Shown piece by piece: positions 28,593 to 39,342 of a stretch of 39,342 nucleotides of DNA. A program made the position numbers and the translations under genes. Origin of the DNA: Spirochaetota bacterium. Its GTDB lineage: Bacteria > Spirochaetota > Spirochaetia > DTKZ01. The notes beneath the pieces were generated by a model, which saw only the letters and a list, made by a program, of their open reading frames with translations, searched no databases and had not been told where the DNA came from. The stretch lies in NCBI GenBank assembly GCA_026418195.1, contig JAOABU010000058.1:1-39342 (forward strand), read 5' to 3'. Numbering within the stretch: position 1 is the stretch's first letter; every line of letters begins with the position of its first letter.

Positions 28593-28835
28593 ATGGGGCT
28601 AGTCGTATTCCCAAAAGGCTGGTCATCCAAACAAAAGAAGAGTGCCATGTTTTGGGTTCTCTTCTTTACCGTTGTGTTTCTCGCAAACATTTGGCCATTG
28701 TATCTAGTGGCGAATAGTGTGACGCCTTTTGTACTCGGAATGCCTTTCTCGATGTTCTGGATCATCCTTTGGATCGTGATTGGATTCATCGGATTGGTAG
28801 TGATGTATCGCTCTGAATATGGAGAGAAAAAATGA
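28593..28835 (+). CDS. DUF3311 small membrane protein
   Basis: The 80-residue protein has two membrane segments (about 18-40 and 50-72) and the DUF3311 pattern: ANIWPLYLVANSVTPFVLGMPFSMFWIILWIVIGFIGLVVMYRSEY. DUF3311 proteins are typically encoded directly before a sodium:solute symporter and are thought to be an accessory subunit. That is the arrangement here, with an ATGA overlap. The ATG follows AAGGAGG at good spacing. Confidence 0.88.
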   Translation: MGLVVFPKGWSSKQKKSAMFWVLFFTVVFLANIWPLYLVANSVTPFVLGMPFSMFWIILWIVIGFIGLVVMYRSEYGEKK

Positions 28836-30304
28836 GTGCTGCAGGTGCTGTAATATTCGTCGTATTGGTCTATTTAATAGTGATTTTGATTACCGGGATT
28901 CAAGCGGGTAGGCACAAGGAGAACTCAATCCAGGAGTATGTAGCCGCTAGCCGGACATTGAACTTCTTTATTATGTATTTTCTTATGGGGGGTGCTATAT
29001 TCAGTGCTTTCGCCTTCTTGGGTGGTCCAGGATGGGCGTACTCCCGGGGAGCGGCTTCGTACTATATTCTGGCCTATTGCGCAATGGGGCTTTTACCATG
29101 GTTGATCTGGGGACCCCGAGCCTATCGGTTAGGGAAGAGGTACGGATACGTAACACAGGCAGAACTTGTCGCAGACCGATTTCAGTCCAAGACCCTCTCT
29201 GCTCTCATGGCTGTCGTGAGTATCCTCGCTTTCATTCAGTACATCGCTCTTCAGTTGAAGGGGATGGCGTATGTATTGAACGTCACGACAGGGGGATATA
29301 TTCCCTTCTGGTTGGGAGCTCTTATATCCTATGGAGTTGTGTTGATCTACGTACTGACCAGTGGAGTACGGGGCGTGGCATGGACGAACGTGGTGCAAGC
29401 CATCATGATGATCGTGATGGCCTGGGGATTGGGTCTGTACCTTCCCTTCAAACTTCATGGTGGTATTGGGCCCATGTTCCAGAAGATCTACGCGAGTATG
29501 CCCAAGCACCTCGTCATCGGCCCCCCCGGTATTTCTTGGGCCGCCTATAGCTCTGCGATTGCTGTCTCTGTCTTGGGATTCACCATGTGGCCCCATCTGT
29601 TCATGAAGGCCTATGTTACCGATTCGGAAAAGACTCTCAAGCAGACGGTCGCCTTCTACCCAACCTTTGCCATCATTATGGTTCCGGTATTGTTCATTGG
29701 ATTCGCCGGAATCGGGGTAGTACCCAAGGAAAGCCTCAAATCGGCGGACGAGATTCTACCTACCATGATCATGACCATGAAGCTTTCCCCAATCCTTCTC
29801 GGTTTCTTTGCTGCGGCTACCCTTGCGGCAGCCATGTCTTCTGCCGACACGATCACCCATGGGGCCGCTTCGGTGTACACAATGGATTTTCATAAGAAAC
29901 TATTCAATCCTCAGTTGGATGATAAAAAGGCAGTACTCGTTACACGGATTGCGGTTCTTATCTTTACCAGCGTCGCGTATTATATTGCCGTGTTTGGGGC
30001 CCAAACTCTAGTCGCGTTACTCCTTGGAGCTTATGGATCCATCGTGCAATTCCTACCTCTCGTGTTTGCTACCTTCTTTTGGCCTAGAGCGACGAAACAG
30101 GGAGCTATTGCCGGGCTTGTAGTAGGTGTAGCGGTAAATACCTACTTCCAGCTCTTCGCCAAGCCCTGGTTCGACATCCATGCGGGTATTTGGGGGCTTT
30201 TAGTGAATATCGTGGTATTCATCTTGGTCAGCTACATTACTCCTGCTCAACCGGAGGATCATGTAAACCGGTTCACCTACGGGTCCATGGAAAAGATCGA
30301 TTGA
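28832..30304 (+). CDS. Sodium:solute symporter (SSS family)
   Basis: The 490-residue membrane protein has about 13 predicted segments and SSS-family features. These are EYVAASRTLNFFIMYFLMGGAIFSAFAFLGGPGWAYSRGAASYY at the first core helices, the SGVRGVAWTNVVQAIMMIVMAWG helix, and the AAATLAAAMSSADTITHGAASVYTMDF segment that carries the conserved Na2-site serines. It would import an organic solute with sodium. The overlap with the DUF3311 gene and the M20 amidohydrolase 107 nt downstream suggest the substrate is an N-acylated amino acid, a peptide-like conjugate or a breakdown product, but this is inference. The start overlaps the upstream stop in ATGA. Confidence 0.95.
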   Translation: MSAAGAVIFVVLVYLIVILITGIQAGRHKENSIQEYVAASRTLNFFIMYFLMGGAIFSAFAFLGGPGWAYSRGAASYYILAYCAMGLLPWLIWGPRAYRLGKRYGYVTQAELVADRFQSKTLSALMAVVSILAFIQYIALQLKGMAYVLNVTTGGYIPFWLGALISYGVVLIYVLTSGVRGVAWTNVVQAIMMIVMAWGLGLYLPFKLHGGIGPMFQKIYASMPKHLVIGPPGISWAAYSSAIAVSVLGFTMWPHLFMKAYVTDSEKTLKQTVAFYPTFAIIMVPVLFIGFAGIGVVPKESLKSADEILPTMIMTMKLSPILLGFFAAATLAAAMSSADTITHGAASVYTMDFHKKLFNPQLDDKKAVLVTRIAVLIFTSVAYYIAVFGAQTLVALLLGAYGSIVQFLPLVFATFFWPRATKQGAIAGLVVGVAVNTYFQLFAKPWFDIHAGIWGLLVNIVVFILVSYITPAQPEDHVNRFTYGSMEKID

Positions 30305-30346
30305 AGGTTCTAATCACTTAGGATACACTGCCACTACAAACAACAC

Positions 30347-30374
30347 GCGTACTTCCTGCTTGGGGGAAGCACGC
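30347..30374 (+). other. Inverted repeat between symporter and M20 genes
   Basis: GCGTACTTCC (30347-30356) and GGAAGCACGC (30365-30374) match as inverted repeats at 9 of 10 positions with an 8-nt loop. No T-run follows. It may be an mRNA hairpin that separates expression of the two genes, or a binding site. Confidence 0.4.
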
Positions 30375-30411
30375 TCCGTATGATTTTACCAATTCAGAAA
30401 AGGAACAGCCT

Positions 30412-31581
30412 ATGGATTTTAGGAAAGAGATTTCGGGGTTGGAGAAAAGTCTTATTCAGTGGCGACGAGAGTTCCACCAGATTCCCGAAATCGCTATGGA
30501 GGAGGAGAAAACAGCTTCCGCTATCGCAGAGAAACTACGAGGATGGGGGCTTACCGTACACACTGGCGTAGGTAGAACAGGGGTGGTGGGAATCCTGCAG
30601 GGGAGACAACCCGGGAAGACTCTTGGAATCCGTGCCGACATGGATGCCCTTCCCGTTACGGAAGAAACAGGACTTCCTTTTACTTCCACACATCCTGGAC
30701 GCATGCACGCTTGCGGGCACGATGGTCATATCACCATTGCTTTAGGCACCGCAAAACTTCTTTCCCATTTCCGGGACCAACTGAAAGGTACCGCTGTATT
30801 CTTATTTCAACCAGCGGAAGAAACCCTCAATGGTGCACAGGCTATGCTTTCCAGCGAGATCCTGAAAAGAGTGCGTTTAGATGCCGTGGTAGGTCTGCAC
30901 ATTTGGCCTGATCTACCCTTAGGAAAGATTGCCGTTCGGGGAGGGCCCGTAATGGCAGCGGTGGACAGATTTTCGGTGAAGATCCTAGGGAAAGGAGGGC
31001 ATGGGGCAATTCCTCAGAAGTCAGTGGATCCCATCGTTATAGCCTCAGAAGTAGTGCTTGCCCTGCAACGGATCGTGAGCCGGGAAATCGATCCTCTGAA
31101 ACCTGCAGTCCTAACCGTGGGGCGGATCCAGGGGGGAACAACCTTCAATGTGATCCCCGATTGGGTGGAACTGGAAGGAACGGTACGTACCTTTGACCCA
31201 GATGTGCGTTCTCTGGTTGCCCAGAGGATAGAGGAAATGCTCAAAGGAATTACCTCTGGATCCCGGGCAACCTACAACTTAAATTACGAGTTCGGGATCC
31301 CAGCGGTTCAAAATGACGGGAAATTAGCCAGTTGGATTCAGGGTGTGTTGAGGAAGAGCCTAGGGGAGGACTCGGTGGTAGTGGACCTTCCCCCATCGAT
31401 GGGAGGGGAAGATTTTGCCCTGTTCCAAGGAAAAGCCCCGGGAGTCTATATGTTCCTCGGAACGAATAGCGAAGAAAATCCCCTCTATCCGATCCATCAT
31501 GCAAAGTACTCCATCGATGAACGAGTGTTGCCCATAGGTGTGAAGATTTTCTGTGAAATCGCTACAGAGTTTTTAGCCTAG
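30412..31581 (+). CDS. M20 family amidohydrolase (N-acyl-amino-acid hydrolase/HipO type)
   Basis: The 389-residue cytoplasmic metallopeptidase-like hydrolase has the M20D signature. Marks are WRREFHQIPEIAMEEEKTA, LGIRADMDALPVTEETGLPFTSTHPGRMHACGHDGHITIALG (metal ligands in MHACGHDGH), FLFQPAEETLNGAQAML, GLHIWPDLPLGKI, GKGGHGAIPQKSVDPI in the dimerisation domain, and PPSMGGEDFALFQGKAPGVYMFLG. Members hydrolyse N-acyl or N-carbamoyl amino acids or aryl-acyl conjugates such as hippurate. It follows the sodium symporter, so the transported compound may be its substrate. AGGA precedes the ATG at about 8 nt. Confidence 0.94.
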   Translation: MDFRKEISGLEKSLIQWRREFHQIPEIAMEEEKTASAIAEKLRGWGLTVHTGVGRTGVVGILQGRQPGKTLGIRADMDALPVTEETGLPFTSTHPGRMHACGHDGHITIALGTAKLLSHFRDQLKGTAVFLFQPAEETLNGAQAMLSSEILKRVRLDAVVGLHIWPDLPLGKIAVRGGPVMAAVDRFSVKILGKGGHGAIPQKSVDPIVIASEVVLALQRIVSREIDPLKPAVLTVGRIQGGTTFNVIPDWVELEGTVRTFDPDVRSLVAQRIEEMLKGITSGSRATYNLNYEFGIPAVQNDGKLASWIQGVLRKSLGEDSVVVDLPPSMGGEDFALFQGKAPGVYMFLGTNSEENPLYPIHHAKYSIDERVLPIGVKIFCEIATEFLA

Positions 31582-31678
31582 AACAAAATACGATACTCCT
31601 CGATTCTCCAAGTTCCGCCACCTACCCAAGCTTTAGGACCTACGAACACCCCGTTCACCAGAGTAGGATGGTTTAAGC

Positions 31679-31707
31679 TTGACAGGGGATCTATTCAGGT
31701 TCATACT
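31679..31707 (+). promoter_or_regulatory. Promoter of the nagA/TRAP operon
   Basis: TTGACA (31679-31684) is followed after 17 nt by CATACT (31702-31707). The predicted start near 31714 falls inside the palindromic operator at 31711-31737. The leader before nagA would be about 88 nt. Confidence 0.65.
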
Positions 31708-31710
31708 CTT

Positions 31711-31737
31711 GTTATACGACTTACGATGTCGTACAAC
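31711..31737. promoter_or_regulatory. Putative GntR/FadR operator upstream of nagA
   Basis: GTTATACGAC-N7-GTCGTACAAC is an inverted repeat with 9 of 10 positions matching between arms. It covers the predicted transcription start of the nagA operon. The second gene of that operon encodes a FadR-type GntR regulator, so autoregulated repression relieved by an amino-sugar metabolite is likely. Confidence 0.65.
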
Positions 31738-31801
31738 CATCGGTAATGTAGGTTTGAGATATTTCTCCATTGGGAGTTCAAGGACCCTGGGGAGGTGATG
31801 A

Positions 31802-32959
31802 ATGCGGTATCGAGGTATTTCCTTAGATACGGGAAAAGCACTGGAGATTCGAATAGAACAGAGTGTGATCCGCGAAGTACGAGAAATCGAGTTTTCAAAG
31901 GATCTTCCCTACCTAACGATAGGTTTTTTTGATCTCCAGATTAACGGACACCGAGGGATCGACTATAGCGGAGAAGATCTGACCCCAGAGAAGGTTCTGG
32001 AAGTCTGCCATTCTGTAGCGAGAACAGGGACTACTCGCCATCTTGCCACGATTATTACCCGGCCTAGGGAACGTATCCTGGCCAACCTCCGAGTCCTCAC
32101 AGAAGCCCGAAAACAGTACCCGTTTGTGAGGGATAGTATCGTAGGAGTGCATCTAGAAGGACCGTTCATCTCTGAAGAGGATGGTCCTCGGGGAGCCCAT
32201 AACAGAGATTTTGTTCGAGATCCCGATATTGGTGAGTTCGAGGAGTGGCAGGATGCTGCCGAGGGAACCATTCGACTTGTGACCCTTGCCCCTGAACGGA
32301 AAGGAGCCATCCCCTTTATCCAACATCTTCGCCAGCGAGGGGTAGTAGCAGCTATCGGACACACGGGAGCGTCGGCGGAAATCATCCAGGAAGCTATACG
32401 ATCAGGAGCTTCCCTCTCCACACATTTAGGGAATGGTAGTCATGCCCAGATTCCTCGTCTTAGGAACTATATATGGGAACAACTTGCCGCAGATGAACTG
32501 TATGCGAGCTTTATCTGCGACGGTTTCCACTTACCCCCTTCAGTGATGAAAGTCTTTACCCGAGCAAAGGGGATAGAACGGATCATACTGGTGAGTGATG
32601 TAGCGTTTCTGGCCGGATTGAAGCCGGGATTTTACAAATGGGGGCACCTGGATGTAGAGCTTCATCCGGATGGTCGAATCACCCAAGTAGGAACTCCATT
32701 CTTTGCGGGTGCGGGTCATCTGCTAGATCGAGGGATTGCCCAGTTCGTAAAGCACACGGGATCCAGTCTTTCGATGGCGATTCGGACATGTACGGTGAAC
32801 CCTGCCAAACTCACGGGGATTCCGGAATCTTTTTTCAACTTGAAGGTAGGTGTTCCTGCTCATTTGGTACTATTTGACCATCCCAAGGAAGACGATACCC
32901 TCCGGATTCATAAAGTGGTAGTGAATGAGGAAGAGTTGGATGGAGCTAAAAAGTCTTAA
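31802..32959 (+). CDS. nagA: N-acetylglucosamine-6-phosphate deacetylase (NagA family)
   Basis: The 385-residue amidohydrolase-superfamily protein matches NagA. Marks are FFDLQINGHRGIDYSGEDLTPE near the N-terminal metal region, VHLEGPFISEEDGPRGAHNRDFV (metal-ligand Glu), VAAIGHTGASAEIIQEAIRSGASLSTHLGNGSHAQIPR (His ligands), ASFICDGFHLPPSVM (catalytic-site His), VSDVAFLAGLKPG with the catalytic Asp, and TVNPAKLTGIPE at the C-terminus. It removes acetate from N-acetylglucosamine-6-phosphate or a related amino sugar phosphate. It is the first gene of an operon with a GntR regulator, a TRAP transporter and a SIS-domain protein. The ATG has GGGGAGG 6 nt upstream. Because the rest of the operon is not a normal GlcNAc system, the actual substrate may be another N-acetyl sugar. 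Confidence 0.9.
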   Translation: MRYRGISLDTGKALEIRIEQSVIREVREIEFSKDLPYLTIGFFDLQINGHRGIDYSGEDLTPEKVLEVCHSVARTGTTRHLATIITRPRERILANLRVLTEARKQYPFVRDSIVGVHLEGPFISEEDGPRGAHNRDFVRDPDIGEFEEWQDAAEGTIRLVTLAPERKGAIPFIQHLRQRGVVAAIGHTGASAEIIQEAIRSGASLSTHLGNGSHAQIPRLRNYIWEQLAADELYASFICDGFHLPPSVMKVFTRAKGIERIILVSDVAFLAGLKPGFYKWGHLDVELHPDGRITQVGTPFFAGAGHLLDRGIAQFVKHTGSSLSMAIRTCTVNPAKLTGIPESFFNLKVGVPAHLVLFDHPKEDDTLRIHKVVVNEEELDGAKKS

Positions 32960-33674
32960 GGATCAGAACCTCTATCAAGCTGCTCAGGAACGGATCAAAG
33001 AATACATCGTAGCCTCTGGTATGAATGTAGGCGATCCACTTCCTACGGAGATGGAACTAGCGGAAAAATTGAACATCAGCCGTACCATAGTTCGAGAAGC
33101 TTTAAAAGGGTTAGAAGCGTTGCAGATCATTGGGGTGAAGCATGGAGTGGGCCGATTCTTAAAAAGTTTCAATCTAGAAGCGATTCTACAGAATTTGTCT
33201 TACAGCATCGAAATGAACGTGAAGGATTTTAGGGAAATTCTGGAGGTAAGGATCTGCCTTGAGGAAGCTTTTCTGGAAAGAGAAACACCTAGATTTTCCG
33301 CTTCCGATTTAGAAGACCTGGAATCGATCCTCCATCAGTTGGAGGTGGCCACTCAGACCGACAACAAAGAGACTGAGTTGATAGAACTCCACACAGCATT
33401 TCATCTACGATTGTACAAGAATGCTAACAATTCCTTCCTTCTCAATTTGATTAGGATCTTCTCTACCATTCAGAAGAACCTTACCTATCTCAAACGGTAT
33501 CGAACGCTGGATAAGAAGGCCTTTGTAGAGGATCATCGAAAAATCCTAGAAGCCCTTCGAAAGAAGGATGGGAAATTAGCGAAGGAACGTCTTCTGGAAC
33601 ATTTCGCAGAGCCCCTTCATTGGGCTCATTTGGAATACAGCGCCGTAGGCGTTGATGGCGAAAGAGTTCGTTAG
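32940..33674 (+). CDS. FadR-subfamily GntR transcriptional regulator
   Basis: The 244-residue protein has an N-terminal winged helix (YQAAQERIKEYIVASGMNVGDPLPTEMELAEKLNISRTIVREALKGLEALQIIGVKHGVGRFL) and a C-terminal FCD ligand domain with the metal-site residues expected in ELHTAFHLRLYKNANNSFLLNLI and EDHRKILEALRKKDGKLAKERLLEHF. It overlaps the end of nagA by 20 nt. The ATG at 32940 is preferred to the one at 32925 because GAGG lies 9 nt upstream. It probably binds the palindrome at 31711-31737 and controls its own operon in response to a sugar-derived acid or phosphate. Confidence 0.93.
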   Translation: MELKSLKDQNLYQAAQERIKEYIVASGMNVGDPLPTEMELAEKLNISRTIVREALKGLEALQIIGVKHGVGRFLKSFNLEAILQNLSYSIEMNVKDFREILEVRICLEEAFLERETPRFSASDLEDLESILHQLEVATQTDNKETELIELHTAFHLRLYKNANNSFLLNLIRIFSTIQKNLTYLKRYRTLDKKAFVEDHRKILEALRKKDGKLAKERLLEHFAEPLHWAHLEYSAVGVDGERVR

Positions 33675-33690
33675 GAAACAGGAGGATTGT

Positions 33691-34680
33691 ATGAAGCGTG
33701 CTGGGTTGATGGTACTGATCAGTATCGTTCTGGTATGTGGGCTTTTTGCTCGGGGTGCGCAGGAAAAGATGGTGCTCCGGTTAGGACACATACGGGACAC
33801 GAATCATCCTACTCATTTAGCGGCTCTGAAGTTTAAGGAGTTGCTAGAAGGGGAATCAAAGGGAAGATTCGAAGTGAAAATCTATCCCAACAGTCAATTG
33901 GGAGGCCCCAAAGAAATGTTTGCGCAAATGCAAACAGGGGATCTGGAAATGGTGTATGGAGGGATCAATACCTTTGCTTGGATAAAGGGGGGAGAAGCGT
34001 TTGAAATCACAGCTATTCCTTTTTTGTTTAACTCGTACGAACATATGCGAAAGTTCCTTCTTTCCGACTACTGGAAACCAGTGATCCAAAAGGCAGAAGC
34101 TGCTACAGGTATCAAGATTGTAAACATCAATGGGGACACCGCACCGAGAGGACTTACCACAAGAGACAGGGAAGTAAAAACAGCGGATGACTTTAAGGGC
34201 CTGAAGATCCGCACCGCTGCGAGTCCCACAGTACTGAAAGCGATGCAAACCCTAGGAGCGCTGCCGCAGCAGATCCCTTTCAGTGAACTGTACATGGCTC
34301 TGAAAACGGGAGTAGTGGACGCACAGGAGAACGGGGTTATAGTGGTGGCAACCGCGAGCCTATTTGAAGTTCAGGGTTACTACATCAAGACCGATTACAT
34401 TCGAGATATCGAAACCTTCTATATGCCTGTGAGCCTGTGGAATAAACTCCCGAAAGCAGACCAGGACATGATCTACAACGCAACAGAAGTAGCTGGGAAC
34501 TATGAAACAGAGTTGACCCAGAAACAGCTGAAAGACGCGTACGACTTGGTGAGCAAGAAGATGAAGGTAATCGTTCCTGACTTGGCTTCTATACAGAAGA
34601 AGCTGGAAGGAGCCTTCGATGAGTACGAAGGAACCAAGTGGCCCGTGGGAGCGTTGAAGAAAGTTCGCGAGATGCAGTAA
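33691..34680 (+). CDS. dctP: DctP-type TRAP solute-binding protein (nagA operon)
   Basis: The 329-residue exported binding protein starts at the ATG at 33691, with GGAGG at 5 nt; a longer reading from 33652 lacks a ribosome binding site and would bury the signal peptide. The signal sequence (about 1-20) ends GLFARGAQEK without a lipobox cysteine. DctP features are RLGHIRDTNHPTHLAALKFKELLEGESKGRFEVKIYPNSQLGGPKEMFAQMQTGDLEMV, the substrate-arginine segment GLKIRTAASPTVLKAMQTLGALPQQIPFSELYMALKTGVVDAQENG, and a helical tail. The conserved arginine indicates a carboxylate-bearing ligand, such as an N-acetylated sugar acid or sialic-acid-like compound. Confidence 0.94.
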   Translation: MKRAGLMVLISIVLVCGLFARGAQEKMVLRLGHIRDTNHPTHLAALKFKELLEGESKGRFEVKIYPNSQLGGPKEMFAQMQTGDLEMVYGGINTFAWIKGGEAFEITAIPFLFNSYEHMRKFLLSDYWKPVIQKAEAATGIKIVNINGDTAPRGLTTRDREVKTADDFKGLKIRTAASPTVLKAMQTLGALPQQIPFSELYMALKTGVVDAQENGVIVVATASLFEVQGYYIKTDYIRDIETFYMPVSLWNKLPKADQDMIYNATEVAGNYETELTQKQLKDAYDLVSKKMKVIVPDLASIQKKLEGAFDEYEGTKWPVGALKKVREMQ

Positions 34681-34702
34681 GACTAAACCAGAGGAATCAG
34701 TC

Positions 34703-35983
34703 ATGATTCTGTTATTATTTTTTCTGCTATTCCTCTTCATCGGTATCGGATTCAGTATCTGGACCGCAATGGGGTTGAGTGGCCTTATCTATATCCTGAT
34801 CCAAGGTCAAGTATCCCTCAAAGTTCTAGTTACCAACATGGTCACGGGGGTGGATTCTGCCACTCTCGTGGCTATCCCTTTTTTCATTCTGGCGGGCGAG
34901 TTAATGAACAAGTCCGGAATCACAAAACGTATCGCCGATTTTGCCGATTTCTTCGTGGGACGGTTCAAAGGTGGGTTAGCGTATGTTGCGATCGTGGTGA
35001 ATGTGATCATGGCCGGCATATCGGGCTCGGCCGTAGCAGACGCTAGCGCGGTGTCTTCCATCCTCCTTCCTGCCATGAAGGAGAAAGGATACGATCTTCC
35101 TTTTTCGGCGGCCATCAATGCCTCTGCCGCTGTAATCGGTCCCATTTTTCCTCCTAGCATCCCCATGATCTTCATAGGGGTGATCAGCGGAATATCGATC
35201 GGAAAACTGTTCCTCGGAGGGGTGATTCCTGGCTTAATGATGGGTGTGTTCCTTGCCATTACCGTGTTCATTGTCAGTCGGAGGAAGAACTATCCTCTCT
35301 CCACCCGGAGTTTTTCCATTCCTGAGTTTTTAGGCTTACTTCGGGACACGATCCTCGCCATCATCTCACCCCTCATCATCATCGCAGGGATCGTATTCGG
35401 GATCGTGACTCTGGTGGAAGTTGCTGTACTCGCCATCGTGTATATTCTTTTCATTTCTCTCTACGTGTATCGAAGTATATCGTACCGTGAGATCCTGGAA
35501 GTCCTTGCAAAGACTGCAGTGTTTTCCACTTCCATCATGATCATCTTTGCAGTCGTAGGAGTGTTTCAATACATTGTTGCTTTGGAACAGTGGGGGGAAA
35601 AATTAAAACTTCTTATCGCTAGCTGGCAGATGAGCAAGTGGACCTTCCTTCTTCTGGTGAACCTTTTCTTCATTTTTATGGGATGTATTCTGGATGCTAT
35701 ACCCGTGATGCTGATCTTCTTTCCTGTACTTTTGCCCACTGCGATTGGGTTGGGGATAGATCCTGCCCATTTTGGAGTGATAACCGTACTGAACCTTATG
35801 ATTGGGTTACTTACTCCTCCCATCGGAGCCCTCCTTTTTTTGGAAACAAAGATCGCAAACTTGCCCTTTGCAGTACTGGTGAAAGCGGTAACCCCTTACA
35901 CACTAACCCTTTTTGTTGTTCTGTTCCTTTGCACATATATACCAGAGTTGGTGTTATGGATTCCCAACCTGCTTTTAAAGTGA
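34703..35983 (+). CDS. dctM: TRAP transporter large permease subunit DctM (nagA operon)
   Basis: The 426-residue polytopic protein has the DctM hallmarks VAIPFFILAGELMNKSGITKRIADF, IMAGISGSAVADASAVSSILLPAMKEKGYDLPFSAAINASAAVIGPIFPPSIPMIFIGVISGISIGKLFLGG, and LMIGLLTPPIGALLFLETKIA. It lies 22 nt after dctP and before dctQ. P-M-Q order is unusual, since most DctPQM operons run P-Q-M. AGAGGA precedes the ATG. Confidence 0.95.
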   Translation: MILLLFFLLFLFIGIGFSIWTAMGLSGLIYILIQGQVSLKVLVTNMVTGVDSATLVAIPFFILAGELMNKSGITKRIADFADFFVGRFKGGLAYVAIVVNVIMAGISGSAVADASAVSSILLPAMKEKGYDLPFSAAINASAAVIGPIFPPSIPMIFIGVISGISIGKLFLGGVIPGLMMGVFLAITVFIVSRRKNYPLSTRSFSIPEFLGLLRDTILAIISPLIIIAGIVFGIVTLVEVAVLAIVYILFISLYVYRSISYREILEVLAKTAVFSTSIMIIFAVVGVFQYIVALEQWGEKLKLLIASWQMSKWTFLLLVNLFFIFMGCILDAIPVMLIFFPVLLPTAIGLGIDPAHFGVITVLNLMIGLLTPPIGALLFLETKIANLPFAVLVKAVTPYTLTLFVVLFLCTYIPELVLWIPNLLLK

Positions 35984-35991
35984 GGTGAAGG

Positions 35992-36468
35992 ATGTGGAAG
36001 CGAATTTCTGAGTACCTGACCGATGGAATCCAATGGACTTCCGGAGTGTTGTTCCTCGGTCTTCTGGTCCTCAATGTACTACGGATCTTTCTCAGGTATT
36101 TTTTCGGGATTTCCTGGCTTTGGGTTCCCGACCTTTCTCGTCTACTGTTCATCTGGATTGTGTTTCTGGGGAGTGCTTGTCTATACGGAGGAGGTGAACA
36201 TCTGGTGATGGATTATTTTATTTCCAAGCTTGATTATGGAATCGCTAGTAAGCTACGGCGATTCGTTTTGGCTGGAGAATGCGTTCTATTCATTGTTCTG
36301 ATGGGAGTGGGAATCCAAATGACGATAGTCCGGATGGGAATTCCCTTCGATACCTGGGATTTACCTACGGGTTACGCGTACCTGGCCGTACCCATTTCCG
36401 GAGCCATCATGATGTTCTTTTGCTTGGTTAACGGGATGCAATTGTTTGGTAAGGAGAAAAACATATGA
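35992..36468 (+). CDS. dctQ: TRAP transporter small permease subunit DctQ (nagA operon)
   Basis: The 158-residue protein has four predicted membrane segments and the DctQ pattern: RIFLRYFFGISWLWVPDLSRLLFIWIVFLGSACLYGGGEHLVMDYFI. It lies 8 nt after dctM and overlaps the SIS-domain gene in ATGA. GAGGTGAAGG serves as ribosome binding site. It is distinct in sequence from the DctQ at 23088, so the two systems are not a recent duplication. Confidence 0.9.
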   Translation: MWKRISEYLTDGIQWTSGVLFLGLLVLNVLRIFLRYFFGISWLWVPDLSRLLFIWIVFLGSACLYGGGEHLVMDYFISKLDYGIASKLRRFVLAGECVLFIVLMGVGIQMTIVRMGIPFDTWDLPTGYAYLAVPISGAIMMFFCLVNGMQLFGKEKNI

Positions 36469-37223
36469 ATAGGGAACTGCAACAGTACAAGGATGCCATA
36501 TTCAAAGCCATTGAACAGATTTCGGCAGAAGAACCCGTGATCCAGGAAGCGGCCAAGGTAATGGCCAAATCTATTGCAGAGGGAAACTTGATCCATGTGA
36601 TTGGTCCGGGCGGGCATTCCAATATGGCGGTGGAAGAAGTGCTCTGGCGGTCGGGTGGTCTAGTGCCCATAAACGCAATTCTGGATGCAGGTACGAACCT
36701 GATCCATGGAGCCAAGCGATCCAATTTTATTGAACGCACTCCAGGATATGCGCCAAAGGTTTTGGACGCGTATGGGGTAGGGAAGAAGCCCGGGGAAGTG
36801 ATTGTGATCGTGAATGCATATGGGATCAATGCCATGTGCATTGACACAGCGTTGGAAGCTCGAAAACGAAAGATGGTCTCCATTGGCATTACTTCTCGGG
36901 AGTTCGCAGATAGGCTCCCCAAAGACCACCCTTCCCGCCATCCATCTGGCAAGAACTTGTACCAGGAGGTGGATTACTTCATTAACTGCCACCTTCCCTA
37001 CGGGGATGCGGTAGTGGAGGTGGAGGGATGTGCACAAAAAGTTGGTCCTACGGCCACGATCTGCAATGTGGTTACCATCAATTTCCTCATGGTGGAAACA
37101 GTGAAGGCTCTTGTGTCCTTGGGAGTGAAGCCACCTGTATGGATGAGCGCGAACCTTCCCGGCGGGGATGAGGCGAATCGGGCCTACGAGGAAAAGTATA
37201 GGCCGTTGATCAAGCATCTATGA
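36465..37223 (+). CDS. SIS-domain (phosphosugar isomerase-type) protein
   Basis: The 252-residue soluble protein has a SIS domain. An N-terminal helix (ELQQYKDAIFKAIEQISAEEPVIQEAAKVMAKSIAEGNLIHVIGPGGHSNMAVEEVLWRSGGLVPINAI) is followed by a second Rossmann-like half containing VIVIVNAYGINAMCIDTALEARKRKMVSIGITS. It lacks a DNA-binding domain. SIS proteins bind phosphosugars as isomerases, deaminases or sensors. After deacetylation by NagA, an isomerase or deaminase step is expected, and this protein is the only candidate in the operon, but a catalytic assignment cannot be made from sequence. It is the last gene before a terminator. Confidence 0.88.
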   Translation: MNRELQQYKDAIFKAIEQISAEEPVIQEAAKVMAKSIAEGNLIHVIGPGGHSNMAVEEVLWRSGGLVPINAILDAGTNLIHGAKRSNFIERTPGYAPKVLDAYGVGKKPGEVIVIVNAYGINAMCIDTALEARKRKMVSIGITSREFADRLPKDHPSRHPSGKNLYQEVDYFINCHLPYGDAVVEVEGCAQKVGPTATICNVVTINFLMVETVKALVSLGVKPPVWMSANLPGGDEANRAYEEKYRPLIKHL

Positions 37224-37263
37224 GGGGTAGAGGAGCAGGTTCTATCAACCCTTCCCCTCTTTT
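37222..37263 (+). terminator. Terminator of the nagA/TRAP operon
   Basis: GAGGGGTAG (37222-37230) pairs with CTTCCCCTC (37251-37259) with one T-T mismatch, followed by TTTT. An inner hairpin GGTT-CTATC-AACC fits in the loop. It starts inside the SIS-gene stop codon, and the stop of the convergent minus-strand gene (37245-37247) lies in its loop. Confidence 0.75.
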
Positions 37264-37625
37264 GGGATGGAAAAGGAAGCGGAATCGAAGCCTTCCCCTC
37301 CCAACCAAAGGTCGATTTTAGTACCTTCCTGCGTCCGGGAAACATCCGCGTGCTTGACCTGCCACCCCACTAGATTGAGACGGGAACTTCCTAATAGATC
37401 ATGGCCTGCCATAATCCCGTAATATTCAGAGAGCTCGGGACGACGTTCAGGATTCAGGGCGGACCGTATGCTCTCCAGTTCTTTTTCTGATCTTGGATTA
37501 TTGTCCAAGATGGCTAGATGAAGTCCATCTTTTTCCCAGTGTAGGGAAATTACCATCCGTGAGGGGTTGGCATCCAGGATGAATCGGGCCATTTCTCCGA
37601 TTAAATGAAGAATGTATTCTTTCAT
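37245..37625 (-). CDS. Small GHKL/HATPase-like protein with degenerate N-box
   Basis: The 126-residue soluble protein starts at the ATG at 37625, with AGGAG 5 nt upstream overlapping the DUF1576 stop. A long reading frame upstream is only a shadow of DUF1576. The pattern GEMARFILDANPSRMVISLHWEKDGLHLAILDNNP, then YYGIMAGHDLLGSSRLNLVGWQVKHADVSRTQEGTKIDLWLG follows the strand-helix order of HATPase_c domains, with DNNP at the G1 position. The N-box Asn appears replaced (E-M-A-R-F), so ATP binding is doubtful. It is co-transcribed with the phosphatase and the DUF1576 protein, so an RsbW-like anti-sigma or partner-binding role is a reasonable guess, but not shown. Confidence 0.75.
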   Translation of the reverse strand: MKEYILHLIGEMARFILDANPSRMVISLHWEKDGLHLAILDNNPRSEKELESIRSALNPERRPELSEYYGIMAGHDLLGSSRLNLVGWQVKHADVSRTQEGTKIDLWLGGEGFDSASFSIPKEGKG

Positions 37626-37633
37626 AAGGTCTC

Positions 37634-38887
37634 CTAAGAGATTTTTTGCCTGGTTGTACGGTACCATTCGATAAGGGCGACAAACAAGGAGGCTGTCAGA
37701 CCACCCGAAAAGCCATTGTTGTAGAGATCTAGCCCTCCATGCCATGCGGCGGTTCGTTCTACCATTACAAGGTGCACGAAACCCGCTGCTATTCCAATCA
37801 CTACTCCGAATTGGCCTGCAAGGGGAGCGAGAGTTGTACCGAACAAAGCAGCTAAAATGGGACCGGGAGCCGCAAGATTCTTCCCAAAGATAAAACAACT
37901 GAGCATTACACCCATTACTACTGGCCAACAATTTCTTATATTTTTACCAAATGCTCCGAAGCCCATCAAGGTTAATAGCCCCCCTAAAACAGGACCGTTA
38001 AAGTCACCCTTTACTAAAAACACGTAGGCGCTACCCAGTAAACCCAAAAGCCCCATGTTCAGCAGAGCCCCTTCCGCTGAACCCTGGTCCACGAAGTCCG
38101 TTGGCAGTCGGCCCGGAAGCTTTTGTAGACTTATGAGGTCTGTTAAAGCCTTTTTGTAGTCTAGAAGGAAACTCCCCGCGATAAGAAACAGGGATATGGC
38201 GGGAATAAAGGCGATCAGCGCAAGGGAAGGTTCTTCGTTCCACACTACCTTAATGTCCATGTTGAGTTTCGAAGCGGAAAGTAGGGAAGCGGCAAAGAGT
38301 CCTAAAAAACCACAGGAAAAACCGATGTTGTACAGATTGTATCCCTGGTGCAGATGCAGCATGGATATGGCAATGGAGGGTAAACAAACACCCGCACCTA
38401 GACCTGAGATGACGCCGACAAGAACAGCATGTATGCCTGTTAATCCACTCTGAAAAACAAGAAAGGTTACCAGGGGGCCTAGGGCTGTGCCGAACATAGC
38501 CATCAATATATAGGCGGCAAAAGGTTTTTTAGCGATCCGGGCAGCGATGTAGACGCCTCCAATAATGGGGAGGCAATTCAGGGGAGTCTTTCCGAACAGG
38601 GCAAACCCCATCATGGTGAGGATTGCGGCGATGGTAGGTCCTGATAACTTGACCTTGTTGAGCTTTACCAAACCCAATCCTATGGCAGCCACAAGACCAC
38701 TATTCATAAGAGCAGCACCTACCCCTCCTAAAACGGTATAGTCCGCTATAAGACGGGCTGGTCGGGTTTGAAGGGCAATAAATCCTTTTATAGTGGAATC
38801 AAAACCCTGGACCGCGAATCCAAGAAGAATCGATCCCATAATGATGATCGAAAAAATCATGTAGAGAGCGGTTTCTTTTGTATTCAC
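37634..38887 (-). CDS. DUF1576 polytopic membrane protein
   Basis: The 417-residue membrane protein has about 11-12 hydrophobic segments and two pseudo-repeated halves. Each half has a motif of type H-x-G-x-x-L-Y-N-x-G-F (LHLHQGYNLYNIGFSCG and WHGGLDLYNNGFSGG) and a FGKTPLNC/FGKNIRNC segment. This matches the DUF1576 family of unknown function. The GTG at 38887 is chosen because GGAGG lies 7 nt upstream; the ATG at 38902 overlaps that ribosome binding site. It is encoded between a SpoIIE-like phosphatase and a GHKL-like protein, suggesting a sensor-transporter or signalling scaffold in the membrane. Confidence 0.85.
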   Translation of the reverse strand: MNTKETALYMIFSIIIMGSILLGFAVQGFDSTIKGFIALQTRPARLIADYTVLGGVGAALMNSGLVAAIGLGLVKLNKVKLSGPTIAAILTMMGFALFGKTPLNCLPIIGGVYIAARIAKKPFAAYILMAMFGTALGPLVTFLVFQSGLTGIHAVLVGVISGLGAGVCLPSIAISMLHLHQGYNLYNIGFSCGFLGLFAASLLSASKLNMDIKVVWNEEPSLALIAFIPAISLFLIAGSFLLDYKKALTDLISLQKLPGRLPTDFVDQGSAEGALLNMGLLGLLGSAYVFLVKGDFNGPVLGGLLTLMGFGAFGKNIRNCWPVVMGVMLSCFIFGKNLAAPGPILAALFGTTLAPLAGQFGVVIGIAAGFVHLVMVERTAAWHGGLDLYNNGFSGGLTASLFVALIEWYRTTRQKIS

Positions 38888-38937
38888 CGGTTCACCTCCC
38901 ATGCGGCATCATACAAGGGGATTTGGGAAACTGGCAA

Positions 38938-39323
38938 CTATATTTTTTGATTGCTCCCAGATATTGATCTAGGCGTATCTGTACCCATTTCATTGATGTA
39001 GTAAGACTTTGGGTTTCCTCTAAGCAGGAGAAGGGTTACGTCATCGGCTTGGGGAGCAGTTCCTCGAAAGGAATGGAAATCTTCCCAGATGCGCACCAGG
39101 GAAGATTGTAGAGATTGGGACATATCTTTTCCTAAATATGGCTTCAAGCGGGAAAGGGTATACAAGGACTTTTCTCGAGACTCCTGTTCTAACAAACCGT
39201 CACTGTATAAAAGGAAAATATCTAGGGGACGGAGGCTTAAGGTGAAAGAGCGCAATTGCAGTTCGCTCATGATTCCTAATGGGGAATTGGATATTGGAGA
39301 AGAGAGTGGTGCTAGTTTTCCGT
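38938..39323 (-). CDS. SpoIIE/RsbU-type PP2C phosphatase, N-terminus cut by contig end
   Basis: The minus frame is open from the adapter boundary and gives about 128 residues of the C-terminal end of a PPM/SpoIIE phosphatase domain. Diagnostic parts are SPLGIMSEL, the strand-rich LSLRPLDIFLLYSDGLLEQES with its metal-binding Asp, and APQADDVTLLLLRGN with the second Asp pair. Metal-ligand aspartates of the C-terminal half are present. The N-terminal sensory part and start lie beyond the contig. Reading from the internal ATG at 39270 would drop a conserved strand, so the gene is truncated by the contig edge rather than short. It is the upstream gene of the DUF1576 operon. Confidence 0.85.
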
Positions 39324-39342
39324 CTGTCTCTTATACACATCT
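39324..39342. other. Tn5/Nextera mosaic-end adapter (artefact)
   Basis: CTGTCTCTTATACACATCT is the exact reverse complement of bases 1-19 and is the Tn5 mosaic end. Genomic sequence ends at 39323. Confidence 0.97.

Follow-up and report, generated by a model that had tools for sequence, protein, structure and literature searches.

The membrane protein family DUF1576 and a small protein predicted to share the fold of the histidine-kinase ATP-binding domain form a real, undescribed gene pair, in which the dependence runs one way: DUF1576 manages without its partner, and no intact partner gene was encountered where DUF1576 is missing. The reading that we favour, with moderate confidence, is that DUF1576 is transporter- or channel-like and that the small protein regulates it from the cytosol, as a dedicated subunit docked close to residue Phe318. 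A literature search by both names of the family, DUF1576 and PF07613, found no publications in the collection searched, and the family is carried by about 30% of the sampled genomes from the class of the bacterium analysed here and by 10% of sampled Clostridia. The pairing provides a first partner for this orphan family, together with Phe318 as a one-residue candidate marker of contact, and DUF1576 proteins that occur alone offer natural controls that make the role of DUF1576 directly testable. If our reading is true, the ATPase fold of histidine kinases has found a new use here, in a subunit that regulates a membrane protein.

The window, by which we mean the whole stretch of DNA analysed, is one entire contig (G000:C6, 39,342 bases) from a spirochaete-like genome bin. 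Untrimmed Nextera mosaic-end adapter is present at both contig ends (1-19 and 39324-39342). At the right end, the minus strand encodes a phosphatase fragment, DUF1576, and then the small protein, with the following features:

39324..39342, no strand: Nextera transposase mosaic-end adapter, exact match to CTGTCTCTTATACACATCT with 0 expected; a sequencing artefact.
38938..39323, minus strand: SpoIIE/PP2C-type phosphatase, C-terminal fragment truncated by the contig end (PF07228 positions 102-190, E 1.6e-15); outside the conserved module.
37634..38902, minus strand: DUF1576 membrane protein of 422 aa with two homologous repeats (PF07613, 345 bits over two stretches).
38276..38797, minus strand: DUF1576 repeat 1 (PF07613 positions 4-177, E 2.8e-53).
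37667..38152, minus strand: DUF1576 repeat 2, predicted to be inverted relative to repeat 1 (PF07613 positions 4-177, E 7.1e-52).
37949..37951, minus strand: codon for Phe318 of DUF1576, a candidate docking residue (Phe in 90/91 proteins with a partner and 0/14 without).
37631..37635, minus strand: AGGAG ribosome-binding site of the GHKL-like gene, identified from the sequence.
37245..37625, minus strand: GHKL-like small protein of 126 aa with a predicted histidine-kinase catalytic-domain fold and lost ATP motifs (AlphaFold2 model, Foldseek search of the PDB and motif counts).

The phosphatase fragment is separated from DUF1576 by 35 nt, and the GHKL-like gene starts 8 nt past the DUF1576 stop codon (TAG, 37634-37636), which its ribosome-binding site overlaps, as an earlier note on this DNA had observed. 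The same note had described the three genes as an operon; their adjacency and tight spacing stand, but the arrangement is not conserved in relatives. Convergent with the DUF1576-GHKL module is a plus-strand run (28832-37223) with genes for a sodium/solute symporter-like protein, an M20-type peptidase, a NagA-like amidohydrolase, a GntR/FCD regulator, TRAP dctPMQ and a SIS-domain sugar isomerase-like protein, and this run looks like a cluster for amino-sugar uptake and breakdown.

The pairing of DUF1576 with the small protein recurs widely. Among the 81 loci recovered by similarity search, the window included, the small-protein gene lies directly 3' of DUF1576 in 77, and in the remaining four the sequence is cut 2-83 nt after DUF1576. 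Spacing is tight, with 32 of 74 pairs overlapping and 64 within 30 nt. Taken alone, the 77 of 77 loci had at first been read as obligate pairing, a reading refuted by five spirochaete and nine Clostridia genomes that carry DUF1576 by itself. These came to light in unbiased samples. Across 297 genomes from the class of the window, DUF1576 was found in 89 and the small protein in 78; 13 genomes had DUF1576 only, eight of them cut by contig ends and five genuine (G071, G203, G252, G266 and G272), such that the small protein accompanies DUF1576 in 76 of the 81 assessable genomes. Just two partner-only matches were obtained in this class, both of them short fragments (G140 and G222). In 391 genomes of the Clostridia, the class of Negativibacillus, DUF1576 occurred in 41, and all 29 small-protein matches fell in genomes that carry it; at the 40 loci inspected, the partner was directly downstream in 30, absent in nine and disrupted in one. 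Neither sample yielded an intact small-protein gene in the absence of DUF1576. Where some small-protein matches seemed to contain in-frame stops, we read the match as extending beyond the true stop. The conserved module of DUF1576 and a GHKL-like protein that the earlier note had perceived is thus borne out, as a conserved two-gene linkage with one-way dependence of the kind seen in a regulated transporter or channel pair.

Within-family distances of the two proteins are correlated (Mantel r 0.88, 54 pairs; r 0.83 when limited to the spirochaete type; 0 of 2000 permutations), as expected from joint inheritance of both genes. The module was further detected in bins of Fermentibacteria, Muiribacteriota and Neomarinimicrobiota. 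Its carriers include cultured, harmless species, among them Sphaerochaeta halotolerans and Proteiniclasticum ruminis.

Some loci exhibit variations in the arrangement or integrity of the pair. In a one-contig genome (L130, G007:C1:1586000-1591500), DUF1576 is broken across two reading frames and only part of the GHKL-like gene is present, so that both genes seem to be decaying together; the module is intact in a second genome of the same genus (G033). In a member of the Erysipelotrichaceae, a gene for a 301-aa nucleotidyltransferase-domain protein stands between DUF1576 and the GHKL-like gene (L106:5258-6160). Two contigs of Rectinema subterraneum carry an identical DUF1576-GHKL stretch (L097 and L098), perhaps an assembly duplication. 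Two small spirochaete genomes encode a very divergent DUF1576 subfamily (~30% identity) that is partnerless (L144:1007-2407 and L145:1952-3337).

The phosphatase is a chance neighbour of DUF1576, and the three genes are not one system. The earlier note had assigned it to the SpoIIE/RsbU type, and the SpoIIE domain match agrees, but the contig end leaves only the C-terminal half of that domain (profile positions 102-190 of 192); because Nextera adapter sits at the contig ends, we attribute the truncation to the assembly. The proposed recovery of the rest of the gene failed, as no other contig of the same genome contains an overlapping stretch. Co-transcription of the phosphatase with DUF1576 is possible in this strain. 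When 158 other loci, comprising 80 named DUF1576 relatives and further loci from whole-genome searches, were scanned with a SpoIIE profile, no SpoIIE phosphatase adjoined DUF1576; the sole match lay ~3.9 kb upstream of it (L077, E 4.5e-6), and since this true SpoIIE gene scored no better, the custom profile is only moderately sensitive and rare cases could be missed. The only other genome of the same genus that has DUF1576 (G049) carries an unrelated, divergently oriented dienelactone-hydrolase-like gene upstream, and in a genome of the same family (G114) the upstream gene is TRAP dctM. Furthermore, the upstream neighbour is on the opposite strand in 35 of 65 assessable DUF1576 relatives, and DUF1576 must therefore frequently be the first gene of its transcript; the other 30, on the same strand, are of mixed kinds among the 25 of 46 families listed, a further reason why a rare phosphatase neighbour could be overlooked. 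DUF1576 genes without the phosphatase, which the earlier note had named as a refutation of its linkage, thus exist elsewhere. The absence from the 158 loci, the context in G049 and the opposite-strand neighbours together lead us to reject the phosphatase as a part of the module, contrary to the linkage proposed in the earlier note.

They also bear on the mechanism offered there, in which an RsbU-type phosphatase, the GHKL-like protein as an RsbW counterpart, and DUF1576 would act in partner switching. Adjacency, a shared strand and the 35-nt spacing favour such a system in this one contig; set against the contexts of the relatives and a GHKL-like protein devoid of ATP motifs, we consider it scarcely credible. 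The note had itself remarked that no STAS or sigma factor gene was visible, and we likewise found none within reach of the module in the window. Elsewhere, no conserved third gene and no conserved STAS or sigma neighbour was seen at DUF1576 loci, nor any neighbour that would name a substrate, among the 25 of 46 upstream families listed. Recurring neighbours of DUF1576 are ordinary housekeeping genes in lineage-bound clusters, namely exonuclease I with an M48 peptidase, carbamoyl-phosphate synthase, ZIP and aldehyde dehydrogenase. A PADLOC search of the module for a defence-system identity gave no match.

The DUF1576 protein of the window is a clear member of its family, with its two PF07613 repeats scoring 180.9 and 176.4 bits against a cut-off of 25. 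Aligned with each other, the repeats are 35% identical (hhalign E 5e-38), and the H-x-G-x-x-L-Y-N motif, which the earlier note had read in a two-halved protein, recurs in both halves: as HQGYNLYN at residues 185-192 in the first, and as H377 with L-Y-N-N at 393-396 in the second. Invariant or nearly invariant polar residues form symmetric pairs (D54/D269, N67/N282, N109/N324, T139/T356, H185/H377, Y191/Y394 and N192/N395). The AlphaFold2 model is confident and all-helical (pLDDT 96.0, pTM 0.94). Each repeat has about seven helices, and Lys/Arg residues number ~12 per protein on one side against four on the other; helix count and lengths, taken with the positive-inside rule for charges, suggest inverted repeats with both ends of the protein in the cytosol. 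A Foldseek search of the PDB with this model returned no chain with E < 0.01, and a sequence search of solved structures with the DUF1576 and small-protein profiles gave nothing significant. Among the weak Foldseek matches, those ranking better by probability included the urea transporter 3m6e (probability 0.75, E 0.22, TM 0.31-0.40) and the Amt domain of the sensor kinase 6eu6 (probability 0.69, E 0.25, TM 0.33-0.35). We rejected DUF1576 as a relative of the urea transporter family PF03253, as profile-profile comparison with hhalign gave E 0.2-0.5 and the TM-score did not exceed 0.40. From architecture alone, DUF1576 may act as a transporter or channel, and the role that the earlier note had offered for it, to supply a sensed or transported signal, may apply.

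The small protein has no match in the Pfam, NCBIfam or PADLOC libraries, and the histidine-kinase ATPase profile PF02518 matched none of 55 members beyond E 0.09, a value reached by two. Profile comparison pointed towards GHKL, though weakly (hhalign E 0.0025, probability 12%), the best of 20 shuffles giving 0.035. The assignment of the small protein comes from fold comparison: in a Foldseek search of the PDB, the medium-confidence AlphaFold2 model (pLDDT 80.6, from 55 sequences) had as its best matches exclusively histidine-kinase catalytic domains, those of CpxA, PhoQ, DesK and VraS (probability 1.00, E 7e-4 to ~1e-3, TM ~0.5). The model thus indicates the fold of a histidine-kinase ATP-binding domain, and the motifs for ATP are gone from it. 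All 55 aligned members have Tyr or Phe in place of the N-box Asn, which extends across the family the loss that the earlier note had suspected in this one protein. No member has Gly at G1 position +2, the G2 glycines have disappeared and a GLGL-like lid is absent, leaving the protein without the N-box Asn, the G1 DxG and the glycine-rich G2 lid of an active GHKL ATPase or kinase. It is quite improbable, in our view, that the protein is nevertheless an active nucleotide-binding enzyme of unusual chemistry. Such an enzyme would account for Glu11 of the N-box, four residues before the Asn position and invariant in all 55 members, and for the G1 Asp (D41) present in 44 of 44 spirochaete-type members, but that Asp is absent from the Firmicutes type, and the substitutions at the N-box Asn and at G1 +2 are without exception.

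The most conserved motif among spirochaetes, R-P-E-L-x-x-Y-Y-G-x-M-x-G, lies in what would be the ATP-lid region, which is also the least certain stretch of the model (pLDDT 56-60, residues 61-80). Both features fit a loop that would become ordered on a partner.

To locate residues of DUF1576 that track with the small protein, we set 91 DUF1576 proteins that have the partner against 14 that lack it, the latter representing five lineages when parsimony is applied to a FastTree tree. Among the 50 columns with conservation of at least 95%, Phe318 alone separates the two groups: under two alignments, 90 of the 91 proteins with a partner have Phe here and none of the 14 without. The equivalent residue of repeat 1, Phe103, persists in 12 of those 14. 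In 600 resampling draws of five partnered clades, none yielded a column like Phe318. Next in discriminating power are Val381, Asn189, Leu266, Tyr188 and Arg265, and five of the six most discriminating columns, Val381 being the exception, map to predicted cytosolic loops, where a soluble partner would bind. The enrichment in these loops is significant at 85% and 90% conservation (Fisher p 0.003 at 90%), but not at 95% (p 0.26). Phe318 was picked post hoc out of numerous columns, and divergence is greater among the partnerless proteins (median identity 0.28-0.38 versus 0.42); we therefore treat the correlation as a strong lead, not proof, of a contact between DUF1576 and its partner. Because Phe318 is lost wherever the partner is lost, the two proteins probably dock. 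The 14 genomes with DUF1576 and no GHKL-like protein, which on their face count against the linkage drawn in the earlier note, share this loss, which makes them informative.

The membrane-core Asn, Tyr and His residues are retained in nearly all partnerless DUF1576 proteins, from which we infer that the DUF1576 core works alone. This bears on the nearest rival to our reading, that the small protein serves assembly or stability, as a subunit which holds DUF1576 oligomers together or aids folding, with no part in regulation. An obligate structural subunit would explain translational coupling and one-way dependence just as well, and the loss of ATP motifs also speaks for it; the retention of the polar core by 14 proteins from five lineages that lack the small protein argues against it, and the invariant Glu11 and the conserved lid-region loop suggest more than a passive clamp. 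On balance we judge a purely structural subunit rather unlikely.

A signalling output comes next among the rivals. Here DUF1576 would be a receptor, or transceptor, and the GHKL-like protein its output to another protein, in the manner of a split Amt sensor kinase. A GHKL fold adjoining a membrane protein is compatible with this, as are the matches of DUF1576 to 3m6e and 6eu6, and at two loci a Cache-HAMP hybrid histidine kinase is encoded 15-30 nt upstream of DUF1576 (L051:3526-5952 and L065:3499-5904). However, those matches reach TM-scores of just 0.31-0.40, the module includes neither a DHp nor a receiver domain, the N-box Asn, G1 Gly and G2 glycines are lost, and a conserved third gene is missing among the upstream families listed; we find the proposal improbable.

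In the mechanism that we favour, DUF1576 would be the working part of the pair, a polytopic protein of two inverted repeats and most likely a small-solute transporter or channel. The small protein, its Mg-ATP chemistry lost, would be retained as a docking module that binds the cytosolic face of repeat 2, at Phe318, Arg265-Leu266 and the Tyr188-Asn189 loop, and once docked it may tune or gate DUF1576, akin to GlnK on AmtB. More tentatively, DUF1576 may represent a transporter or channel fold absent from the PDB, controlled by a pseudo-enzyme of the histidine-kinase fold that acts as a plug or gating subunit, which would constitute a new form of transport control spread over spirochaetes, Clostridia and several candidate phyla.

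Among known systems, the closest parallel is that of AmtB and its PII plug protein GlnK, in which GlnK regulates the AmtB ammonium channel (PMC4274968) and pairing in genomes has been read as a functional link (PMC3831643, PMC4274968). Both cases join a membrane protein to a small cytosolic partner in a tight gene pair, and the DUF1576 partner is likewise thought to dock on the cytosolic side and regulate. However, DUF1576 shows no significant relation to Amt in the PDB or Pfam, its partner has a GHKL-like and not a PII fold, and regulation by that partner is a proposal. In Ks-Amt5, an ammonium sensor histidine kinase with an active kinase (PMC5764959), a transporter-like membrane part is similarly coupled to a histidine-kinase-type ATPase fold, but that kinase is complete and fused, whereas the DUF1576 partner is separate and has neither phosphoacceptor helices nor ATP motifs. 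With the catalytic (HATPase_c) domains of CpxA, PhoQ and DesK, the small protein shares the order of helices and strands, the N-box Glu and, in the spirochaete type, the G1 Asp; it differs in having only 10-19% identity at TM ~0.5 and in lacking the N-box Asn, the G1 and G2 glycines and a DHp domain. The urea transporters (PF03253) are inverted-repeat membrane proteins, as DUF1576 is predicted to be, and have a weak overall resemblance to it, but the repeats of DUF1576 comprise some seven helices each, and the Foldseek E is 0.22. Finally, the RsbU/RsbW/RsbV system resembles this contig in bringing together a PP2C-type phosphatase and a GHKL-fold protein, whereas the DUF1576 module has no STAS protein, sigma factor or conserved phosphatase, and its GHKL-like protein carries no kinase motifs.
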